Assembly: GCA_026391695.1 (NCBI GenBank)
Contig: JAPLDP010000070.1
Location: 1 to 64,000, forward strand
Length of the DNA: 64,000 nucleotides
Source: Bacteroidota bacterium
GTDB taxonomy: Bacteria > Bacteroidota > Bacteroidia > Bacteroidales > JAGONC01
Direction of reading: 5' to 3'
Under the pieces are notes generated by a model. It worked only from the letters and a program-made list of their open reading frames with translations. It was not told the origin of the DNA and searched no databases. Made by a program: the position numbers and the translations under genes. This document shows, piece after piece, positions 54,236 through 63,747 of the stretch; position 1 is the stretch's first letter; the number at the start of each line of letters is the position of its first letter.

Positions 54236-54360
54236 TGGAGAATCCGGTCAAATTGACCACCTGATTCCGGAACAAATTGACCACCTCTAAACAGGATACT
54301 TACCGGTTGTTTTCCGGAGGAAACTGACCACCTGGTTTCCGGAGGAAACTGACCACACAT
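54236..54360 (+). repeat. IS21 left end with repeated transposase-binding units
   Basis: Four successive units of the form CCGG-x(2-6)-(A/T)ACTGACCACC or AATTGACCACC occur at about 54244, 54267, 54314 and 54338. The mirror-image set is at 60433-60508. This is the multiple terminal-site arrangement of IS21 elements. Confidence 0.75.
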
Positions 54361-54437
54361 TTTCGTTGATTTTATCGATTAAGGACAGCATAAATAGCTA
54401 ATGTTGCGAACAACTAATTTCTCAACACTAACTATTT

Positions 54438-55989
54438 ATGCCAAACAACTTAATCGTTATGAACAAAGTTAAACAGATTTTGCAATGGTACACCGAGGGT
54501 GTTCCTAAATTGAAGATCAGCCAAAAAGCAGGCGTGTCACGCAACTCTGTCAAGAGTTATATTCGTCAGTTTATCGCGATGGACAAGTCGCTGGAAGAGC
54601 TCTTGAGATTAGGAGATTCTGACCTGGAGAAGCTATTTTTAGCCAAACAGGTCAAAGAGCCGGATCATCGGTATAAAGATCTTATAGCCTACTTTCCGGA
54701 AGTCGACAAAGCCCTGAAGAAGAAGGGTAATACGCTATATAAACTTTGGCAGGAATACCTGAAAAAGTATCCGGATGGTTTTAAACACACCCAGTTCAAT
54801 GAGCATTACCGGCAATGGTCTAAGCGAACTAATGCCACGATGCATGTGGATCACAAGGCAGGTGACAAGATGTATGTGGATTATGCCGGCGAGAAGTTAC
54901 AGTTCGTAGATCCGGACACTGGCGAGATATACAAGGTGGAAGTTTTTGTAGCCATTCTTGGTGCAAGCCAACTAACCTATGTGAAAGCGACGATGACCCA
55001 GCGTAAGGAAGACTTTATTGGAGCATGCGAAAATGCCTTGTATTACTTCGGAGGAGCTCCCCAGGCTATTGTTCCGGATAACCTTAAATCTGCCCGTTAT
55101 CAAGAGTGATAAGTACGAGCCAACGCTCAATGAGTCATTCCGTGACTTTGTGGAGCATTACGGCATGGTTGCCCTTCCGGCAGGACCCTATAAGCCACGC
55201 CATAAGGCATTGGTTGAAGGAGCTGTCAAAATTATCTATCAGGTGATTTATACGGTCATCAGGGAGACAGACTTTACCTCGCTTGAGACGTTGAACAATG
55301 CGATCTGGGAACTGCTGGCTATTCATAACAACAACCTGCTTAAGGGTCGCCCTTATAGTCGACGCCAGATGTTTGAAGAAATCGAACGGTCAACGCTTCA
55401 ACCTTTATCGGTGTATCGTTACGAACTGAAAAACAAGCGGATTGCAACAGTATCAAAGAACAACTATGTATGTCTTGGTGAAGACAAGCATTATTACAGT
55501 GTCCCGTACCATTATATCGGCAAGAAGGTAAGCATCCTTTACAGCCAGAGCAAAGTAGACATTTATTACCGCTATGAACACATTGCCTCTCACAATCGCA
55601 ACCGCAGGGCATTCATGTTCACCACGGTTGAGGATCACCTGGCGACCAAACATAAATATCAGTCAGACTGGACTCCGGAGAAGTTTATTGAACGGGCCAA
55701 GGCTGTCGGAGAGCAAACTAAAAAATACATTACCGAAATACTCACCCTGAGACAGCATCCCGAGCAGGCTTATAAAACCTGTCAGGGGATATTAAACTAT
55801 GCAGCTAAAGTCGGCAATGAACGGCTCAACGCAGCCTGTCACCGGGCAAACTTCTATGAAGACTACAGTTATAAGACCATCCTGGCCATACTGGATAAAC
55901 ATCTTGACAGTGTTCTGTTAGATCCGGACCACGATTGTGCATCCATGCCAGTTCATGGTAATATCCGTGGTAACACTTATTATGCATAA
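54438..55989 (+). pseudogene. istA: IS21-family transposase IstA, frameshifted
   Basis: The first frame (54438-55109, 223 residues) contains an N-terminal HTH (ISQKAGVSRNSVKSYIRQ) and the first two residues of the DDE triad (MYVDYAGEKLQF and IVPDNLKSA). The rest continues in another frame to 55989, starting near VIKSDKYEPTLNE and with the final catalytic Glu in ALVEGAVK. The shift is at a CCC run (55093-55095): removing one C restores LKSAVIKSDKY. So istA carries a +1 insertion. An assembly or sequencing error is possible, programmed frameshifting unlikely because this family encodes IstA in one frame. Confidence 0.85.
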
Positions 55990-56084
55990 TGTCAGATGGA
56001 CTCTCTCACCTTATCCGATCCATCAATCGTTGATCGGATAGGGTGAGTTTCCTTGAAAACAATCAACCTAAAAACAGATAAGTT

Positions 56085-56441
56085 ATGAATGAAACAATTT
56101 TGCAAAAAATGAAACAGATGAAGCTGCGCGGCATGGCCGGCGCTTTTAAAACAAGCCTGGAAGATGGCAGGAACGTTCATCTTACAACCGATGAGATGAT
56201 CTCTTTTTTGATCGAATCGGAATGGGATGATCGCAATAACCGCTGCATTGAACGTCGCATTCGTACTGCCCGCTTCCGATATAAAGCCAATATTGAACAG
56301 ATCGACTTTACGATAGACCGCAACCTGGAAAAAAATCTGATGAACCGTTTTGCTGAATGCACTTTTATTGAAAAAAGTGAAAATATCCTCATTACGGGAA
56401 GCACAGGTATCGGCAAGAGTTATATCGCATCTGCACTCGGT
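56085..56441 (+). pseudogene. istB: IstB ATPase, N-terminal part (split by RIT insertion)
   Basis: The 119 codons encode the IstB N-terminus, with the helper-ATPase Walker A loop ILITGSTGIGKSYIA at the end. Reading continues into the RIT end (to 56513), which is not part of the protein. The rest of istB resumes at 59967. Joining the two parts across the element gives an open frame of 244 codons, the normal IstB length. IstB is the AAA+ regulator of the transposase IstA, encoded 95 bp downstream of it. Confidence 0.88.
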
Positions 56442-56467
56442 TATGCAAACAAAATGATTATGCAAAG
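56439..56467 (+). repeat. RIT left terminal inverted repeat
   Basis: The arm (begins GGTTATGCAAACAAAATGAT) is a 28/29 match to the complement of 59907-59935. A second, inverted copy of its inner motif (CTTTGCATAAT) lies at 56525-56535, so each end has paired recombinase-binding half-sites. Confidence 0.85.
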
Positions 56468-56548
56468 CGAAATTCCTGTTTTTGCTATTAATCAGCACAT
56501 TAATATCATATAAAGGGCATATCTCTTTGCATAATATTTTAGAGCAAC

Positions 56549-57562
56549 TTAAAAACTCTTCAACCAACTAAGCAGGTTCTCATTGTTTTCCCAAACCGGT
56601 TCTTCCTTAGGAGAAACATCAACATATGCCTTTTCAAGTGCCTCCCGCTTCTGTTTTGAGTCAGCCCTGGCATAAATTTCAGTCGTTTGAACAGATACAT
56701 GTCCAAGAATGTCCCTTATATATATCAGATTCACACCAGCCTGTAGCAGATGCATAGCTTTTGAGTGGCGCAAAGAATGGCAACTTAATTTGCCCGGCAT
56801 AAGCTTTGGATCCCTTTTTCGCGCTTTATCTGCATATTTTAACAATATATGAGTGACACCAGGACGCGTCAACTTCTCATGTCGACTATTGGAAAACAAA
56901 GGATATGATCTTGTCTGTGGCTTGAGCAGACCAAATTCGGTCAAGTAATTCCGTAATATTTTTACTTGTTCCTCCAACAGAGGAACAATTCGGGTTTTAT
57001 TACCTTTTCCAGTAATTTGTATAGTATAAGGCTTGTCAAGATGGACTGCCGAGGAAGTTAGGTCTATCAGTTCTTGCACTCGTGCTCCAGTATCGTACAT
57101 TAGAGATAATAATGCAAGATCCCGGCGCCCTCTTTTTGTGGTTACACATGGTTGTTCAAGGAGTAACTTAATGCCGTCTACAGTGAGATAATTTATCGTT
57201 ATTTTCTTGGCTTTCTTCACTTTGATAGACATTATCTCCTGATATTCGAACAAGTTGTCTGGATTCTGGTATTGAACGTATCTGAAGAAGGAATGTAACG
57301 CTGCAAGTCGCAGGTTTCTCGTTGTATCACTGCATTTCCTTTCCGACTGTAGCCAATCCAGGAACTCAACAACTGTAGCTTTAGTTATTAATTTCATTAA
57401 TAGTTTCTCAGCCTTTATGTTCTTTACTTGATTCATAAAGGTTATAAAAAGGACAAAAGTGTCTCTATAGGCTATAATCGTATTGGAACTGGAACCTCGT
57501 TCGTGAGACAGATATCTTGTGAGGTAGTCTGTCAGATATTTAGAAAAATCAGTCGGCTTCAT
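56549..57562 (-). CDS. RIT tyrosine recombinase, third gene (RitC)
   Basis: The 337-residue protein is the last in the trio. The catalytic residues are visible: Arg in YDTGARVQELIDL, Lys in ITGKGNKTRIVPL, His/Arg in CHSLRHSKAMHLL, His in LGHVSVQTTEIYARAD and the Tyr there. Its start overlaps the end of the second gene by 14 bp. The three RIT recombinases act together on the element's ends. Its stop is about 80 bp from the left inverted repeat, so the element is compact. Confidence 0.88.
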   Translation of the reverse strand: MKPTDFSKYLTDYLTRYLSHERGSSSNTIIAYRDTFVLFITFMNQVKNIKAEKLLMKLITKATVVEFLDWLQSERKCSDTTRNLRLAALHSFFRYVQYQNPDNLFEYQEIMSIKVKKAKKITINYLTVDGIKLLLEQPCVTTKRGRRDLALLSLMYDTGARVQELIDLTSSAVHLDKPYTIQITGKGNKTRIVPLLEEQVKILRNYLTEFGLLKPQTRSYPLFSNSRHEKLTRPGVTHILLKYADKARKRDPKLMPGKLSCHSLRHSKAMHLLQAGVNLIYIRDILGHVSVQTTEIYARADSKQKREALEKAYVDVSPKEEPVWENNENLLSWLKSF

Positions 57563-58535
57563 AGTTTTCTACATTAGGAAACACATTCAAACAAACCATA
57601 TCAACGTCTTTGAGCAGTCCTGGATACATCTCTGCAGTCAGCCTTACATAAGTATTAGTTGAGCTTATTGACTGATGACCGAGATACGTGGATAGGACTG
57701 GCAATGAAGTGTACAGATCAACGCCGGATTCGGCCATTCTTGCAAACGAAGCCACGGCAAATGAATGACGCAGGTCATGTATTCTTGGCCCATGACCATT
57801 TCCAATATAAGTTATTCCTGCTGCTTTGAGTACAATCCGGAAGTACCTGTAGAAGGTGTGTCGTATACATGCGGATCCGTTCAGGGATATAAAGAATGAA
57901 CTATCATCAGATTGCGGTACGGGAAGCTTTTTCCGGTGATTGATATAATTTTGACATACAACCGATAGGGACTCCGAAATAGGGACCATACGTTGCTTCC
58001 CGTTTTTGGAGTCTTTAATTATAATGAAGTTTTCCGCCAGGTTAACATCCTTGTTTTCAAGAGATAAAGCTTCTCCGATACGAAGACCAGTGCCATATAG
58101 AAGTCTGAGCAAAGTCGGTACAATGAAGATTACCGAGTTCATTATTCTTCTGGGTGCGACAAGCGCATCTGCGGCATGAAAAATCGCTATCATCTTTTTC
58201 TTCGAGAAAATATAAGGTATAAACGTTGATTTTTTACGGGGGATTCTGGGTATATACGAGTGTATTCCAAGCCTGCATAAATAGGAAGATAACTGACTAA
58301 CGCATAAGCATCTATGGAATCTATATGAGTCTGATTCATTGTTCCGACGCTCGCACCATTTGTCCGCTAAATCTTTGGAGATACCGACTTGGGTTTCGCT
58401 TCTCTCTATCGTGAACCGGTCAAAACGCAGATAAATATATTCTTCTGCAATATATTTAAAACCCAGTCCCCTTTTTAGATCTATTAACTGTTTGATATAT
58501 TGTGCATAGATGCCCCAAAATTGATTCTTACTCAT
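57549..58535 (-). CDS. RIT tyrosine recombinase, second gene (RitB)
   Basis: I set the start at the ATG 58535 (328 residues) because it is preceded by a strong Shine-Dalgarno (AAGGAGG) at the right distance; a longer frame opens at 58595 but lies inside the first gene. Catalytic residues: Arg in YGTGLRIGEALSL, Lys near DSKNGKQRMVPI, HDLRHSFAVAS (His/Arg) and LGHQSISSTNTYVRL (His/Tyr). It overlaps the first gene by 8 bp and the third by 14 bp, so the three are translated together. Confidence 0.88.
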   Translation of the reverse strand: MSKNQFWGIYAQYIKQLIDLKRGLGFKYIAEEYIYLRFDRFTIERSETQVGISKDLADKWCERRNNESDSYRFHRCLCVSQLSSYLCRLGIHSYIPRIPRKKSTFIPYIFSKKKMIAIFHAADALVAPRRIMNSVIFIVPTLLRLLYGTGLRIGEALSLENKDVNLAENFIIIKDSKNGKQRMVPISESLSVVCQNYINHRKKLPVPQSDDSSFFISLNGSACIRHTFYRYFRIVLKAAGITYIGNGHGPRIHDLRHSFAVASFARMAESGVDLYTSLPVLSTYLGHQSISSTNTYVRLTAEMYPGLLKDVDMVCLNVFPNVENYEAD

Positions 58536-59781
58536 AGAAAATTCCTCCTTTCTGATTGTAAAATGAAGGAAGTACTTCAGGAACATCCAGCGCACATTGT
58601 CTCATGGCAGTCAAGTCCACACGAAGGTAAAATTTTGTTGATTCTGTGTTTTCATGGCCAAGCACCTCAGAGATGACAGGAAGCAGTGTTTGCCGTTCTA
58701 AAAGACGTCCAGCAAGACTGTGACGAAGGGCATGGGGGCCATGTCGTCTGTTTTTCGTGTTGATACTGGCTTTGGCAAAAGCGTGTTGTACGAGACTTTC
58801 AACTCCGACTGGTGTTATTGGGATAATAGGCGACCGTACAGTAAGGAAAACAAAAGGTTCCTCCGGCTGTTTTCTGCTATATTTAAGATAATCGATGATT
58901 GCATTCCCAATTTCTGGCAACAAAGGAAGTTCAATCTCCTTATCTGTTTTGTATTGGACCAGACGGATAATGTTCTGCCCCCATAATATATTTTTGAATT
59001 TAAGATTGGCTATATCAGAGGCTCGGAGTCCCAACCGTGCGGCAAGCAGGATGATTACATAATCACGTTTACCAACAGAACTGCTTCTTTCAATTGATGC
59101 TATCAGTTTTTCTACCTCCTCCTTTGTGTAAGTAGATGGTACCTTTGGCTGAGACTTGTAATTGCTCCTCGGGATCATATACGAAAAATCCGTTTCCAGT
59201 ATCCGTTGAGCATACAGATACTTGAAAAAATCTCGTAAAACTTGGATAGACGTACGGGCAGCAGTTAAAGTGCGGGGACTTATCCCTTTGATATATTTTA
59301 GAATGTGTAGTAAACATACCGAAGTGATAGCCTCTATGTGGTTATTTTTAAGAAAATTAAAGAACCGGGAAAGATGGCGTTCGTACGTATAAACTGTTTT
59401 ATTGTTAAGCCTTTGATCCGTTTTGACAGCAAGGTACTTTGTCATGAGTACTCCTATCGGGCCATCGAGATCAATCTGCTCCTTCTTGATTTGGACTGCA
59501 CCTGTCTCTAAAAATTCAATAAGAATATTGACAGTGCTTACTCCTTCTTTCTCTCTTTTAGTTAGTTCGCTGTAGTCACGGTTGTTAAATTCGTTCAGAA
59601 GATAATCCCTACAGACAGACGCATCTAAATCGCTTATGTTTTGAGAGTCCATATAGCTCTTAACTCTTCCCCAATGGCGGTTATAGTACTTAAACGTCCT
59701 GTCTGTACGCGAGAATTTTTTTCTAAGATACTCCACAACCTTAGAAATTTTTTCATCATAAGTTTCTTTTACTTTTTCCAT
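58528..59781 (-). CDS. RIT tyrosine recombinase, first gene (RitA)
   Basis: The largest of the trio at 417 residues, with an N-terminal SAM-like domain and a full catalytic set: Arg in ARLGLRASDIANL, Lys in QYKTDKEIELPL, HALRHSLAGRLL and LGHENTESTKFYLRVD. It is the first gene on the leftward transcript; the promoter must lie in the 125-bp stretch between its ATG and the right inverted repeat, which is AT-rich. Its stop codon lies inside the ribosome-binding start of the second gene. Confidence 0.9.
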   Translation of the reverse strand: MEKVKETYDEKISKVVEYLRKKFSRTDRTFKYYNRHWGRVKSYMDSQNISDLDASVCRDYLLNEFNNRDYSELTKREKEGVSTVNILIEFLETGAVQIKKEQIDLDGPIGVLMTKYLAVKTDQRLNNKTVYTYERHLSRFFNFLKNNHIEAITSVCLLHILKYIKGISPRTLTAARTSIQVLRDFFKYLYAQRILETDFSYMIPRSNYKSQPKVPSTYTKEEVEKLIASIERSSSVGKRDYVIILLAARLGLRASDIANLKFKNILWGQNIIRLVQYKTDKEIELPLLPEIGNAIIDYLKYSRKQPEEPFVFLTVRSPIIPITPVGVESLVQHAFAKASINTKNRRHGPHALRHSLAGRLLERQTLLPVISEVLGHENTESTKFYLRVDLTAMRQCALDVPEVLPSFYNQKGGIFYE

Positions 59782-59906
59782 AATTAAATCTGTTTTGACT
59801 GACGGCTAAATTGCCGTCATTACCACAATAGACGAAAATATTATGGAAAGTATTCTATAGTAAAGAATATATAATTGCTTGATATTAAAATTGCAAAGAG
59901 ATATTA

Positions 59907-59935
59907 CTTTACATAATCATTTTGTTTGCATAACC
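59907..59935 (-). repeat. RIT right terminal inverted repeat
   Basis: Complement of the left repeat at 56439-56467, one mismatch (ATGTAAAG for ATGCAAAG). A half-site in inverted orientation (TTGCAAAG, 59891-59898) lies just inside. Confidence 0.85.
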
Positions 59936-59938
59936 CAG

Positions 59939-59960
59939 GTTATGTAAAGCTTTACATAAC
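59939..59960. repeat. Perfect 22-bp palindrome at the outer right RIT end
   Basis: Arms GTTATGTAAAG and CTTTACATAAC without a spacer. The arm is the core motif of the terminal repeats (TTATGTAAAG). It has no counterpart at the left end. Confidence 0.8.
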
Positions 59961-59966
59961 TTTGGT

Positions 59967-60344
59967 AATCAGGCCTGTATGCTCGGTTATAAGGTTCTAT
60001 ATACCAGTACATCAAAACTCTTTGCTATGTTGAAAATGGCACGGGCTGATGGTTCTTACATTAAAAAAACAGCCAGAATCGAAAAGATGGATCTGCTTAT
60101 ACTCGATGACTTCGGTATGCAGCCATTGGATAGTCATAACCGGGCTGCACTCATTGAGATCATTGAAGACCGGCATGGTAAACGTTCAACTATTATTGCA
60201 GCACAACTTCCGGTAGCACAATGGCACGATGTAATTGGTGAGAAAACCATTGCTGATGCGGTCTTGGATCGTATTGTACACAATGCATATCGCATCGAAA
60301 TGGTTGGTGAGTCATTAAGAAAGAGACAACCATTATTGAACTAA
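59967..60344 (+). pseudogene. istB: IstB ATPase, C-terminal part
   Basis: Starting with NQACMLGYKVLYTSTSKLF, the frame gives the second half of the IstB AAA+ domain, including Walker B in MDLLILDDFGMQPL and the later TIIAAQLPVAQWHDVIGE and RKRQPLL end. It is cut off from its start (56085-56441) by the RIT element. Without that half it has no Walker A and cannot work. The stop at 60344 is about 85 bp before the IS21 right-end repeats. Confidence 0.88.
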
Positions 60345-60432
60345 ATCGAATAAAATATCGGTAATGAATAAATGTATATTTGTATAACCGTCTAAAATGA
60401 GATAAAATCAAAGGAAAATGAGGGAAAAATGG

Positions 60433-60508
60433 GGGTGGTCAATTTGCTCCGGAAAGAAGGTGGTCACTTTCAACCGGATTTAGGTGGTCAATATCACCGG
60501 ATTTTGCA
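60433..60508 (-). repeat. IS21 right end with repeated transposase-binding units
   Basis: Read leftward there are three CCGG..TTGACCACC-type units (60433-60452, 60459-60478 and 60482-60501), mirroring the left end. The outer 27 bp match the left terminus at 23 positions. From 60509 to 60725 there is AT-rich noncoding DNA before the next gene. Confidence 0.75.
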
Positions 60509-60725: not shown

Positions 60726-62783
60726 ATGCAAAAACTTACTGTTTTTTTAATTTCATTATTTACATTATATAATGCAAATGCACAGGATTGGCAATGGTTA
60801 AATCCTTTGCCTACTGGTAATACGTTGTATTCAATATATTTTACAAATCCATTTACAGGTTATGCGGTTGGTTATTTTGGTACTATACTAAAAACCATAA
60901 ATGGAGGGACAGACTGGACAATTCAGACTTCTGGGACTCCACAATGGTTAACTTCCGTTTATTTTACAGACGCAGATACAGGTTATGTGGTTGGTACTTA
61001 TGGAACTATATTAAAAACCACAAATGGAGGAACAGGTTGGACAATTCAGACTTCAGGGACAATTTTTAATTTAAATTCTGTTTATTTTGTAGACGCAAAT
61101 ACCGGTTATGCGGTCGGTAATCATGGTACAATAATAAAAACCATAAATGGAGGAGCAGACTGGGCAATCCAGTCTTCGGGAATTTCAGATTATTTACAAT
61201 CCATTTTTTTTACAGACGTAAATACAGGTTATATTGTAGGTGGGTATGAGTACGGAAGTGGGAAAATACTAAAAACCACAAATGGAGGTACAGACTGGAC
61301 AATTCAGACTTCTGTGAGTTTTGATTTATATTCAGTATATTTTACAGACACAAATACAGGTTATGCAGTTGGTCGTTATGGTACAATAATAAAGACCTCA
61401 AATGGAGGAACAGACTGGTCAGGACAAGTTTCGGGATCTTTAACTGATTTATATTCCGTCTATTTTAAAGATACAAATGTAGGTTATGCAGTCGGGTATA
61501 ATGGTATAATACTGAAAACCTCAAATGGAGGGATAAACTGGACAATCCAGTCTTCAGGGACTTCACTTGATTTATATTCCGTTTATTTTACAGACTCAAA
61601 TACAGGATATGCTGTAGTTTGGGGTGGTACAATACTAAAAACGACAAATGGAGGAAATCTTTGGACAATTCAGTCTTCAGTGACTACAAATCATTTAGCA
61701 TCAGTTTATTTTACAAACGCAAATACAGGTTATGCGGTTGGTGAAGCAGGTACCATAATAAAAACCACTGATGGAGGAACAAACTGGATAAATCAAACTT
61801 CGGGCACTGATAATTCTTTGAGTTCTGTTAATTTTGCAGATGCAATTACAGGTTATGTTGTTGGTGAAAATGGTACAATACTAAAAACTACAAATGGAGG
61901 AGCAGACTGGACACTTCAAACTTTAGGAATTTCAAATGATTTATGTTCGGTATATTTTACAGACACAAATACAGGTTATGCGATTGGTCGTTATGGTACA
62001 ATAATAAAGACTACAAATGGAGGAACAGACTGGACAATTCAGACTTCAGGGACTGATTATGATTTACTTTCTGTTTATTTTGTTAATGCAAATACAGGTT
62101 ATATTGTTGGCTGGGATAGTAATATATTAAAAACCACAAATGGAGGAACAGTCTGGACGCCGCATATTTCGGGGACTGCAAGTATTTTACATTCAGTTTT
62201 TTTTACAAGCGTAAATACAGGATATGCTGTTGGTGAAGAGGGTACAATACTAAAAACCATAAATGGAGGAATAGACTGGATATTACAAGCATCGGGATCT
62301 TCTTGTAATTTATTTTCAGTTTATTTCCCAGATGAAAATACAGGGTATGTTGTCGGTGATGACGGTACTATTCTAAAAACCACAAATGGTGGAACAAATT
62401 GGGCAAAACAAACGACTAACACTTATAACTATTTACTTTCAGTTTTTTTTACAGACGCATATACAGGTTATGCTGTTGGTTTTATTGGTACAATACTAAA
62501 AACCATAAATGGAGGGGGAACGGGATTTAATGAATCTTCGGTTGCTCCTAAGTATTTAAAAACTTATCCCAATCCAGCAAAAGATAAAATCATTATTGAG
62601 ATGTTAGTATCATTAGGGGATAATCACCTTTCTATATTTAATGTTAATGGTCAGGAAGTAATAAAACAAAAGATAGTAGAAACCAAAACGCATATTGATA
62701 TTAGTAACCTGCCTGTAGGGGTCTATTTTGTAAAACTGCAAAATGAGAAAACCGTTGAGGTGGGGAAATTTATTAAAGAATAA
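60726..62783 (+). CDS. YCF48/HCF136-like repeat protein with type IX sorting domain
   Basis: The 685-residue protein has a signal peptide (ending ANAQ), fourteen 41-residue repeats of the form FTDxNTGYAVGxxGTILKT followed by TNGGTDWTIQTSG, typical of YCF48-like beta-propeller blades (BNR-like), and a C-terminal type IX secretion domain with YPNPAKDKIIIEM, NVNGQEV and PVGVYFVKL. It is expected on the cell surface or released. The DNA is a tandem array of 123-bp repeats, and it is the only remaining cargo gene of island 2. Binding partner unknown. Confidence 0.88.
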   Translation: MQKLTVFLISLFTLYNANAQDWQWLNPLPTGNTLYSIYFTNPFTGYAVGYFGTILKTINGGTDWTIQTSGTPQWLTSVYFTDADTGYVVGTYGTILKTTNGGTGWTIQTSGTIFNLNSVYFVDANTGYAVGNHGTIIKTINGGADWAIQSSGISDYLQSIFFTDVNTGYIVGGYEYGSGKILKTTNGGTDWTIQTSVSFDLYSVYFTDTNTGYAVGRYGTIIKTSNGGTDWSGQVSGSLTDLYSVYFKDTNVGYAVGYNGIILKTSNGGINWTIQSSGTSLDLYSVYFTDSNTGYAVVWGGTILKTTNGGNLWTIQSSVTTNHLASVYFTNANTGYAVGEAGTIIKTTDGGTNWINQTSGTDNSLSSVNFADAITGYVVGENGTILKTTNGGADWTLQTLGISNDLCSVYFTDTNTGYAIGRYGTIIKTTNGGTDWTIQTSGTDYDLLSVYFVNANTGYIVGWDSNILKTTNGGTVWTPHISGTASILHSVFFTSVNTGYAVGEEGTILKTINGGIDWILQASGSSCNLFSVYFPDENTGYVVGDDGTILKTTNGGTNWAKQTTNTYNYLLSVFFTDAYTGYAVGFIGTILKTINGGGTGFNESSVAPKYLKTYPNPAKDKIIIEMLVSLGDNHLSIFNVNGQEVIKQKIVETKTHIDISNLPVGVYFVKLQNEKTVEVGKFIKE

Positions 62784-63291: not shown

Positions 63292-63747
63292 TTAAACCAA
63301 TGCTAACTGTTTACTCTTATGCAGAACTGTATAATCCTTTTCCAGCCCTTGATCACGAACGTATTCCGAAATACTTGTCTCATCTCCAAATTTGCTTACC
63401 GTATTGACAAAATATCCATCGGTCCAAAATTCCCCTCCCCAAAGTTTGGTTTTCACTTCCGGGTGCCTTTTGAATATTTCCTTCGCCGTGATGCTCTTCA
63501 ACATCGTGATAATTGTCATTGCACTCATTCTGGGTACCGATTGAACCAAAAAATGTACATGATCTTTGTCTGTGCCTATCTCCAAAAAATGAACCTCATA
63601 CCTTTTCTCTATCTCCAAGCAAATCTCCTTCAAGGTTTGATCAACTGCTTTGCTGAACACTACTCTTCTATATTTGGCAGGACATACAAAATGATACAAC
63701 AGTACACTTACATTATGCGATTTATGTATGTATTCGCTTTCACTCAT
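63292..63747 (-). CDS. tnpA: IS200-type Y1 transposase
   Basis: The 151-residue length is standard. The HUH motif is DHVHFLVQ (His63 and His65) and the likely catalytic tyrosine is Tyr129 in SEYVRDQG. The enzyme cuts and joins single-stranded ends held in hairpins. All motifs are intact, so the copy may be active. It lies in the DNA beyond the third att core. Confidence 0.92.
   Translation of the reverse strand: MSESEYIHKSHNVSVLLYHFVCPAKYRRVVFSKAVDQTLKEICLEIEKRYEVHFLEIGTDKDHVHFLVQSVPRMSAMTIITMLKSITAKEIFKRHPEVKTKLWGGEFWTDGYFVNTVSKFGDETSISEYVRDQGLEKDYTVLHKSKQLALV

Follow-up and report, generated by a model that had tools for sequence, protein, structure and literature searches.

The 64,000-nucleotide stretch analysed here (the window; contig JAPLDP010000070.1 of assembly GCA_026391695.1, from a Bacteroidota bacterium) harbors an element that, judged by its sequence, is a recombinase-in-trio (RIT) transposable element within the istB gene of an IS21-family element. 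Three tyrosine recombinase genes lie on the minus strand: ritA (58528–59781, 417 aa), ritB (57549–58595, 348 aa as listed, with a likelier ATG start near 58535) and ritC (56549–57562, 337 aa). All three match the Pfam Phage_integrase profile (E-values 5e-27, 2e-27 and 6e-30, respectively), and a motif search found the R...HxxRH...Y catalytic motif (RHRY) in each. The ritA and ritB genes overlap at 58528–58595 as listed, or by about 8 bp with the likelier ritB start, and ritB and ritC overlap at 57549–57562. The best matches in the RIT of plasmid pHG1 fall in the same order, namely RitA (34% identity, 9e-52), RitB (33%, 9e-62) and RitC (46%, 7e-104). Three adjacent recombinase genes with short overlaps in the order ritA-ritB-ritC are found here as in other RITs, and so are a length of about 3.5 kb, 28–29 bp inverted ends and a palindrome. 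On either side of the trio the Pfam IstB_IS21 profile is split, with 56085–56513 covering profile positions 2–115 and 59979–60344 covering 120–234. The first-pass annotation, made from the sequence alone, had proposed three overlapping tyrosine recombinases splitting istB, which the domain matches, catalytic motifs and divided profile bear out, and had named them a RIT inside an IS21 istB, in agreement with the ordered pHG1 matches. In the available part of PMC8138268, RitA, RitB and RitC form subgroups, RitA having two core-binding domains and RitC an extra C-terminal helix. The window RitA gives one Pfam core-binding match (residues 121–192) and has about 120 more N-terminal residues.

The interruption consists of more than the body of the element. 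The left target half of istB (L, 56085–56434, plus strand) is followed by a 6-bp spacer, s1 (ACTCGG, 56435–56440), placed by the register common to the 46 loci compared below, and then by the RIT body, E (3,493 bp, 56441–59933), whose ritC end faces L. Each end of E carries the half-sites TTATGCAAAC and TTATG(T/C)AAAG, 17 bp apart, so that the end sequence TTATGCAAACAAAATGATTATG(T/C)AAAG consists of two directly repeated half-sites. Beyond the ritA end come a second spacer, s2 (CCCAGG, or CCTGGG read towards E; 59934–59939), proposed to be left over from an earlier target; a perfect 20-bp palindrome, P (TTATGTAAAGCTTTACATAA, 59940–59959), which we propose is the second part of the mobile unit; a third spacer, s3 (CTTTGG, 59960–59965); and the right target half of istB (R, 59966–60344, plus strand). 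The inverted ends at 56436–56467 and 59907–59938 span 32 nt with 94% complementarity, and the 27-bp pairs of half-sites, T1-T2, lie inside them. The 29-bp inverted ends noted earlier are real repeats, but they bound only E; s2, P and s3 still precede the right part of istB. An extra inverted copy of the half-site motif (CTTTGCATAAT, 56516–56540), about 85 bp inside the ritC end, may be an accessory binding site.

Excising E, s2, P and s3 (56441–59965, 3,525 bp) while keeping s1 yields an IstB of 244 aa, its two halves joined by comparison with uninterrupted relatives. This is the cut proposed in the first-pass annotation (56442–59966, restoring 244 codons), shifted by one identical T. Uninterrupted istB genes (L020/L163, the same place, with 74.6% protein identity, and L021, with 70.7%) run gap-free across the junction, ...IASALGNQAC..., as do more distant relatives, and the predicted junction consequently holds at the protein level. 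The length of the insertion is thus exact, but which six bases were original is not fixed, since s1 (Ala-Leu-Gly, the conserved reading) and s3 (Ala-Phe-Gly) both preserve the istB frame. Neither a second RIT copy nor a second copy of the window istB was found in the element's own genome (95 contigs, 97% complete), and an exact nucleotide empty site for this copy is for that reason not available. Among 395 genomes of the phylum there was no close DNA copy (best other match 72% over 165 bp), RitB was matched at E <= 1e-30 in only one other genome, and a single protein query of viral contigs found no relative of the window element.

For comparison, a RIT collection was drawn from genome contigs (limited to the best 80 of 542 relatives), viral contigs (43 loci), plasmids and whole genomes; those compared come from Bacteroidota, Firmicutes, and alpha- and betaproteobacteria. 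A parser that required T1-T2 half-sites at each end succeeded with 56 of 128 loci. In the remaining 72 the sequence was short, or a clear inverted repeat or such half-sites were missing; the weaker viral matches among them are probably not RITs. Both flanks were present in 47 parsed loci, including two duplicates (L121 and L128). The set used for spacer analysis comprises 46 loci, 33 of these 47 and 13 of 26 others tried, in which the order s1-E-s2-P-s3 was resolved and P lies on one side. The set leaves out the two duplicates, any locus in which P is on both sides or on neither, 11 of 25 extra loci in which the second end was unresolved, and L053 and L078, in which that end matched only spuriously (17/27); it keeps L049, with a palindrome of only 7/10, and L068 and L161, with 19-bp palindromes. 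Seven contigs of 3,498–3,519 bp (L055, L061, L089, L090, L091, L095 and L108) were considered as circles, but they show no direct terminal overlap and are taken to be multi-copy elements that the assembly collapsed. Five of them have junction contigs (in genomes G598, G601, G614, G615 and G616), while the end pattern used gave none in G613 and G627.

Moving outward from E on one side, one meets six bases, then a palindrome of 20 bp (19 bp in a few cases), then six more bases and the target, and this 6-20-6 register is constant wherever it can be read. It is also kept where the half-sites have other sequences, as in pHG1 (P = AAATGTGCTGCAGCACATTT) and rhizobial plasmids (P = TTATGCCGCGCGCGGCATAA). 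Only 0.4% of random 20-mers are as palindromic as P, and the P pattern occurs in 21 of 45 RIT genomes (44 reached through RIT loci plus the window's own), compared with 0 of 45 for a reversed-pattern control. The fixed register together with this control rules out a chance origin of P and also makes a terminator or promoter role unlikely. Of 30 P sites found in the pattern scan, 27 adjoin an E end by inspection (the one in G602 with a degenerate half-site). In a test set gathered after the model was formed, P is in register in seven of eight rhizobial loci (five on the ritA side, two on the ritC side); the exception, L262, is flanked by the same target half at either end. P is likewise in register in the second R. 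albus copy, L269, while L268 was not resolved with the ranges chosen. Among 36 further loci a palindrome was found in 20, of which 16 are in register (L062 with a degenerate half-site).

The palindrome is not tied to either end of E. Among the 47 loci with both flanks, P lies on the ritC side only in 17, on the ritA side only in 18, on both sides in four and on neither in eight; in the spacer set it adjoins ritA in 26 loci and ritC in 20. A conventional element, with one simple pair of ends and the palindrome as a fixed part of the ritA end, would agree with the window copy, in which P is on the ritA side, and with the 28-9 bp inverted repeat and overlapping palindrome reported in the available text of the 2012 survey (PMC3414803), but the 20 loci with P at ritC make it a highly improbable description. 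The same element also carries P at opposite ends within single genomes. In G601 (Mucilaginibacter agri; the element itself is collapsed into contig L061), the sequence of contig C13 is E(ritC end)-TGATGG-P-GCGTTA-target and that of contig C1 is E(ritA end)-TAACGC-P-CCGTAA-target, while a ritC end lacking P (target-CCATCA-E), in contig C7, likely belongs to the C1 copy as its opposite side. Read inward, the spacer at the ritC end is CCATCA in C7, C13 and the collapsed contig alike, and that at the ritA end is GCGTTA in both C1 and the collapsed contig, a pattern which is what one circle with two cores, each used once, would leave. G615 (Parabacteroides goldsteinii) likewise has one contig with P next to the ritA end and another with P next to the ritC end; P is imperfect here, yet it has the same direct orientation relative to E in both. 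L038 and L083, each with P on both sides, and the comparison of L096 with G616 agree with G615. Related rhizobial elements, 92–97% identical among the matches listed (six of 40 records, the query's own L262 and L279 were examined), have P on the ritA side in L270, L271, L273, L274 and L279 and on the ritC side in L272 and L275; complete plasmids make assembly errors unlikely here. In L262 (pSymA, complete) P is absent and both flanks look by eye like the same target half. Taken together, these sequences suggest that P is a separable, side-switching part of the mobile unit rather than a fixed end.

RIT target sites are recurrent, and, so far as the loci permit a test, P appears to stay on the same side with respect to the target. 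Four radC insertions (L043, L045, L047 and L117) break the Pfam RadC profile at position 68 of 121, and in all four E lies next to the upstream half and P next to the NHPSG side, although the end next to P is ritA in two and ritC in two. In L042, L044, L053, L054 and L078 an NHPSG-coding flank is beside P too, but these loci were recognised by that flank and are excluded as a test. L059, L097, L101 and L104 break DDE_Tnp_1 at 163–164 of 200, with P downstream in all four (at the ritC end in three, at the ritA end in one). Within istB the break points vary: profile position 223 of 238, near the C-terminus, in L087 and L114, position 100 in L052, and about 115 for the window element. L126 occupies the end of an open reading frame with a phage portal domain, and L040 lies beside an ORF6N domain; 9 of 30 flank proteins scanned for families gave none. 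A half-site-like consensus in the target flanks is weak, with no more than 0.58 bit at any position. The flanks of L068, L070, L085 and L099, RITs with TTATC-type half-sites, read by eye like an AbiEii-type nucleotidyltransferase motif.

The sites without an insertion indicate that P arrives with E. The empty pHG1 site, present in two plasmids, is without P, 605 bp ungapped, and has a single copy of the six bases. The empty rhizobial IS66 site, in three copies, is likewise without P over 338 bp ungapped, 32 bp of them past the junction. At the Bacteroides site L035, whose other end is not resolved, a relative with identical flank continues from the same six bases without P. It follows from such P-free sites that the inserting unit is E-s2-P within a 6-bp direct repeat, possibly imperfect. 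In a rival reading P is a pre-existing feature of the target, for example a palindromic hotspot such as a hairpin as in integron attC, beside which only E inserts; in its favour, P stands alone at three places without an adjacent E (L215, L217 and L222). Nevertheless, uninterrupted homologues lack P at the site (L163, L021, L266, L267, L265 and L276–L278), palindromes of the same form occur in the unrelated genes for RadC, DDE_Tnp_1 and IstB, and the 6-bp repeat flanks E plus P, not E alone. We regard a target origin of P as very unlikely.

The spacers carry a further signal. Across the 46 loci s1 and s3 agree at 4.63 of 6 positions, compared with 1.65 when shuffled (highest of 10,000 shuffles 2.39), and 16 pairs are identical. 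Thinning to 33 loci leaves the value at 4.70 against 1.65, whereas target bases just beyond the six show no such match (1.73 versus 1.57, 33 loci). By position the matches number 27, 35, 37, 23, 45 and 46 of 46, the last two being nearest E. As a general rule, strand exchange by tyrosine recombinases involves a check of the two to three bases adjoining the site of cleavage, and the s1/s3 identity next to E fits this rule. The loci fall into five classes: s1 = s3 with s2 different (11), all equal (5), s1 = s2 only (6), s2 = s3 only (6) and all different (18).

The middle spacer may be a record of an earlier landing site. In four radC loci s2 codes, by translation by eye, for the same Leu-(Ser/Ala/Gly)-His as the target, and s2 of L104 (GCTATT) equals the target spacer of L080. 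The window s2, CCTGGG, is the exact sequence at the homologous site of the uninterrupted istB L021 (L163 has GCTAGG), and it is also s3 of an IS66 insertion, L223; L038 and L039, close relatives of the window element, sit in IS66 genes (translation by eye). The earlier address of the window element may therefore have been istB or IS66, but the match is suggestive only.

Carried 6-bp spacers are also known from SEs, which, in the available text of PMC10214605, combine several recombinase-type proteins with such a spacer. A strand-biased copy-out/copy-in scheme as for SEs and Tn554 would place the six bases of the circle at one defined end and those of the target at the other. The spacer shared with s2 lies equally often at either junction of RITs (s1 = s2 only in six, s2 = s3 only in six), a comparison of standing copies and not of observed events, and we consider this scheme unlikely.

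The reading that we prefer, and hold to be quite probable, is that an E-P circle with two 6-bp cores inserts through one of them and keeps the spacer of the other as s2. The register, the side switching of P, the match between s1 and s3 and the single 6-bp copy in uninterrupted relatives support it. We infer the circle itself, the succession of steps, the half-site that each recombinase cuts, the part played by each of the three enzymes and the direction in which the spacers are repaired. The circle, E-s-P-s', would consist of the 3.5-kb body with inverted half-sites at its ends and the 20-bp P, with two half-sites head to head, joined by two spacers, so that each spacer with its flanking half-sites (P-s-E) would form a full recombination core. 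One core would exchange with a 6-bp target, L-T-R, joining E to L and P to R to give L-s1-E-s2-P-s3-R. In this product s1 and s3 would be the six bases of either target or circle, and s2, a remnant of an earlier round, would be the spacer of the core not used. As either core would serve, E could lie either way round in the same target with P always on the R side.

In a stricter form, which we favour with less assurance, each core would be flanked on its left by L or a P end and on its right by R or an E end. The circle would then insert either way, place P on the R side and store the earlier six bases, and its second core could join two copies of the target. If that core were to recombine with a further copy of the target, L-E-L and R-P-R rearrangements would result. 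Candidates for L-E-L are L067, L071, L080, L094 and L262, and a candidate for R-P-R is L217; draft assembly or homologous recombination between oppositely oriented copies could also give them. The three P sites without adjacent E (L215, L217 and L222, from G589, G614 and G598, respectively) are possible R-P-R products. Both outward flanks of L217 are, by eye, istB-like C-terminal tails, and one flank of L215 resembles the downstream half of a DDE transposase. L038, L039, L048 and L083 have P on both sides of E and the same target half, inverted, on both sides, the mirror of the target-E-target loci.

Several observations weigh against the circle with two cores. No circle, excision or transposition of a RIT is observed in these sequence data, and many of the assemblies are short-read drafts. 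Eight of the 47 parsed loci are without P, although one of these (L046) was mispaired and does have P, and four or five read as having one target half at both ends. Among the 36 further loci, the palindrome is out of register in four (L051, L092, L105 and L112) and none was found by the pattern used in 16, one of which, L036, has a P of other sequence. The shuffles of s1 and s3 overstate independence, because the rows share ancestry. Position 5 is mismatched in one of the 46 loci (L107), in the likely G601 pair CCATCA/CCGTAA, which is outside that set, and in G598, where both possible s1 sequences (CGGTAA and CTGTGA) differ there from s3 (CGGTCA); the match at position 6 holds in all of these. 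In the window itself s1, s2 and s3 all differ, and the match of its s2 to the istB site is weak evidence, as part of the sequence is dictated by the Leu-Gly codons. For G601 and G615, which left junction contig belongs with which right one was decided by inference, the element itself being collapsed, and a G601 junction of the ritA end without P was not found. Finally, the orientation of imperfect P is the same in four comparisons but opposite in one (L098/L086 versus G615), which implies that P can also be inverted.

Some RITs have larger forms. The locus first paired wrongly as L046 is L264 (1208–16609 in G593, Dysgonomonas sp. PF1-14), a RIT whose matching ends lie about 15.4 kb apart; its P is in register and its three spacers are equal (TGCCCA). 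Between its ritA and the end lie large proteins that are RHS/YD-repeat-like by eye, making it a RIT with cargo. Contig C19 of G598 (L221) has two RitB genes between RIT ends about 7 kb apart and is a double or nested RIT.

The IS21-family host of the window RIT spans approximately 54236–60508 on the plus strand. Its complex terminal inverted repeats (54236–54286/60458–60508 and 54313–54356/60435–60478) enclose istA and istB, as in the IS21 family, whose transposase IstA, helper ATPase IstB and complex terminal repeats it shares. The window copy differs in that istA (54438–55989, plus strand) is present as two overlapping frames, 54438–55109 and 55018–55989, matching the NCBIfam transpos_IS21 profile at 5–189 and 190–292. 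Because of this frameshift near 55090, the host copy is probably inactive apart from the interruption of istB. Further along the window lie a gene for a 685-aa protein that combines 13 Ycf48-like repeats, each about 41 aa long, with a T9SS sorting domain (60726–62783), and an IS200/IS605-type transposase gene (63292–63747).

The window element belongs to the known RIT kind, and what appears to be new is the general two-part anatomy read by comparison. The RITs of Cupriavidus metallidurans CH34 and pHG1 share with it the overlapping ritA-ritB-ritC trio, the length of about 3.5 kb, the 28–29 bp inverted ends, the palindrome and insertion into transposase genes or radC. It is not separate from them as a family, and the added anatomy of side-switching P and 6-bp spacers also fits the pHG1 RIT. 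In the Tn916 family, 6-bp heterologous coupling sequences from donor and target occupy the two junctions, as in RITs, but there is one integrase with Xis, and neither a palindrome partner nor a trio is known. Excision of Tn916 is named as a comparison in the available text of PMC10214605. According to the same text, SEs resemble RITs in having several tyrosine recombinases, inverted ends, a carried 6-bp spacer and no recognised mobilization system; they differ in that no 20-bp palindrome partner is described there and the six bases of the target are found preferentially at one end, whereas in RITs they may be at either junction. The ginABCD system shares adjacent integrase genes, a circular form, imperfect direct repeats and sequence variants of the attachment site (PMC5385486, in the part available), but it has four conserved genes, and the terms "palindrom" and "inverted repeat" are absent from that paper's text.

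RITs, their length, inverted ends and palindrome, and their insertions into transposase genes and radC are already in print (PMC3414803 and PMC2864759, in the parts available), while RIT movement, the empty site and target specificity are given as not tested, and transposition as not reproduced to the authors' knowledge, in the available text of PMC10214605. None of the literature matches listed describes, for RITs, a palindrome that switches sides or spacers that are inherited; the main study of RITs, Ricker et al. 2013, and Nielsen et al. 2017 are outside that coverage, and we make no claim of priority. An anatomy of 6-bp spacers and a palindrome on either side would explain the variation seen among RITs, and its two parts make the RIT mechanism directly testable. 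If this anatomy is correct, each RIT copy would hold a brief, legible account of the sites where it had landed before, and copies of the genes that RITs target, transposases and radC, could serve them as points between which replicons are rearranged.

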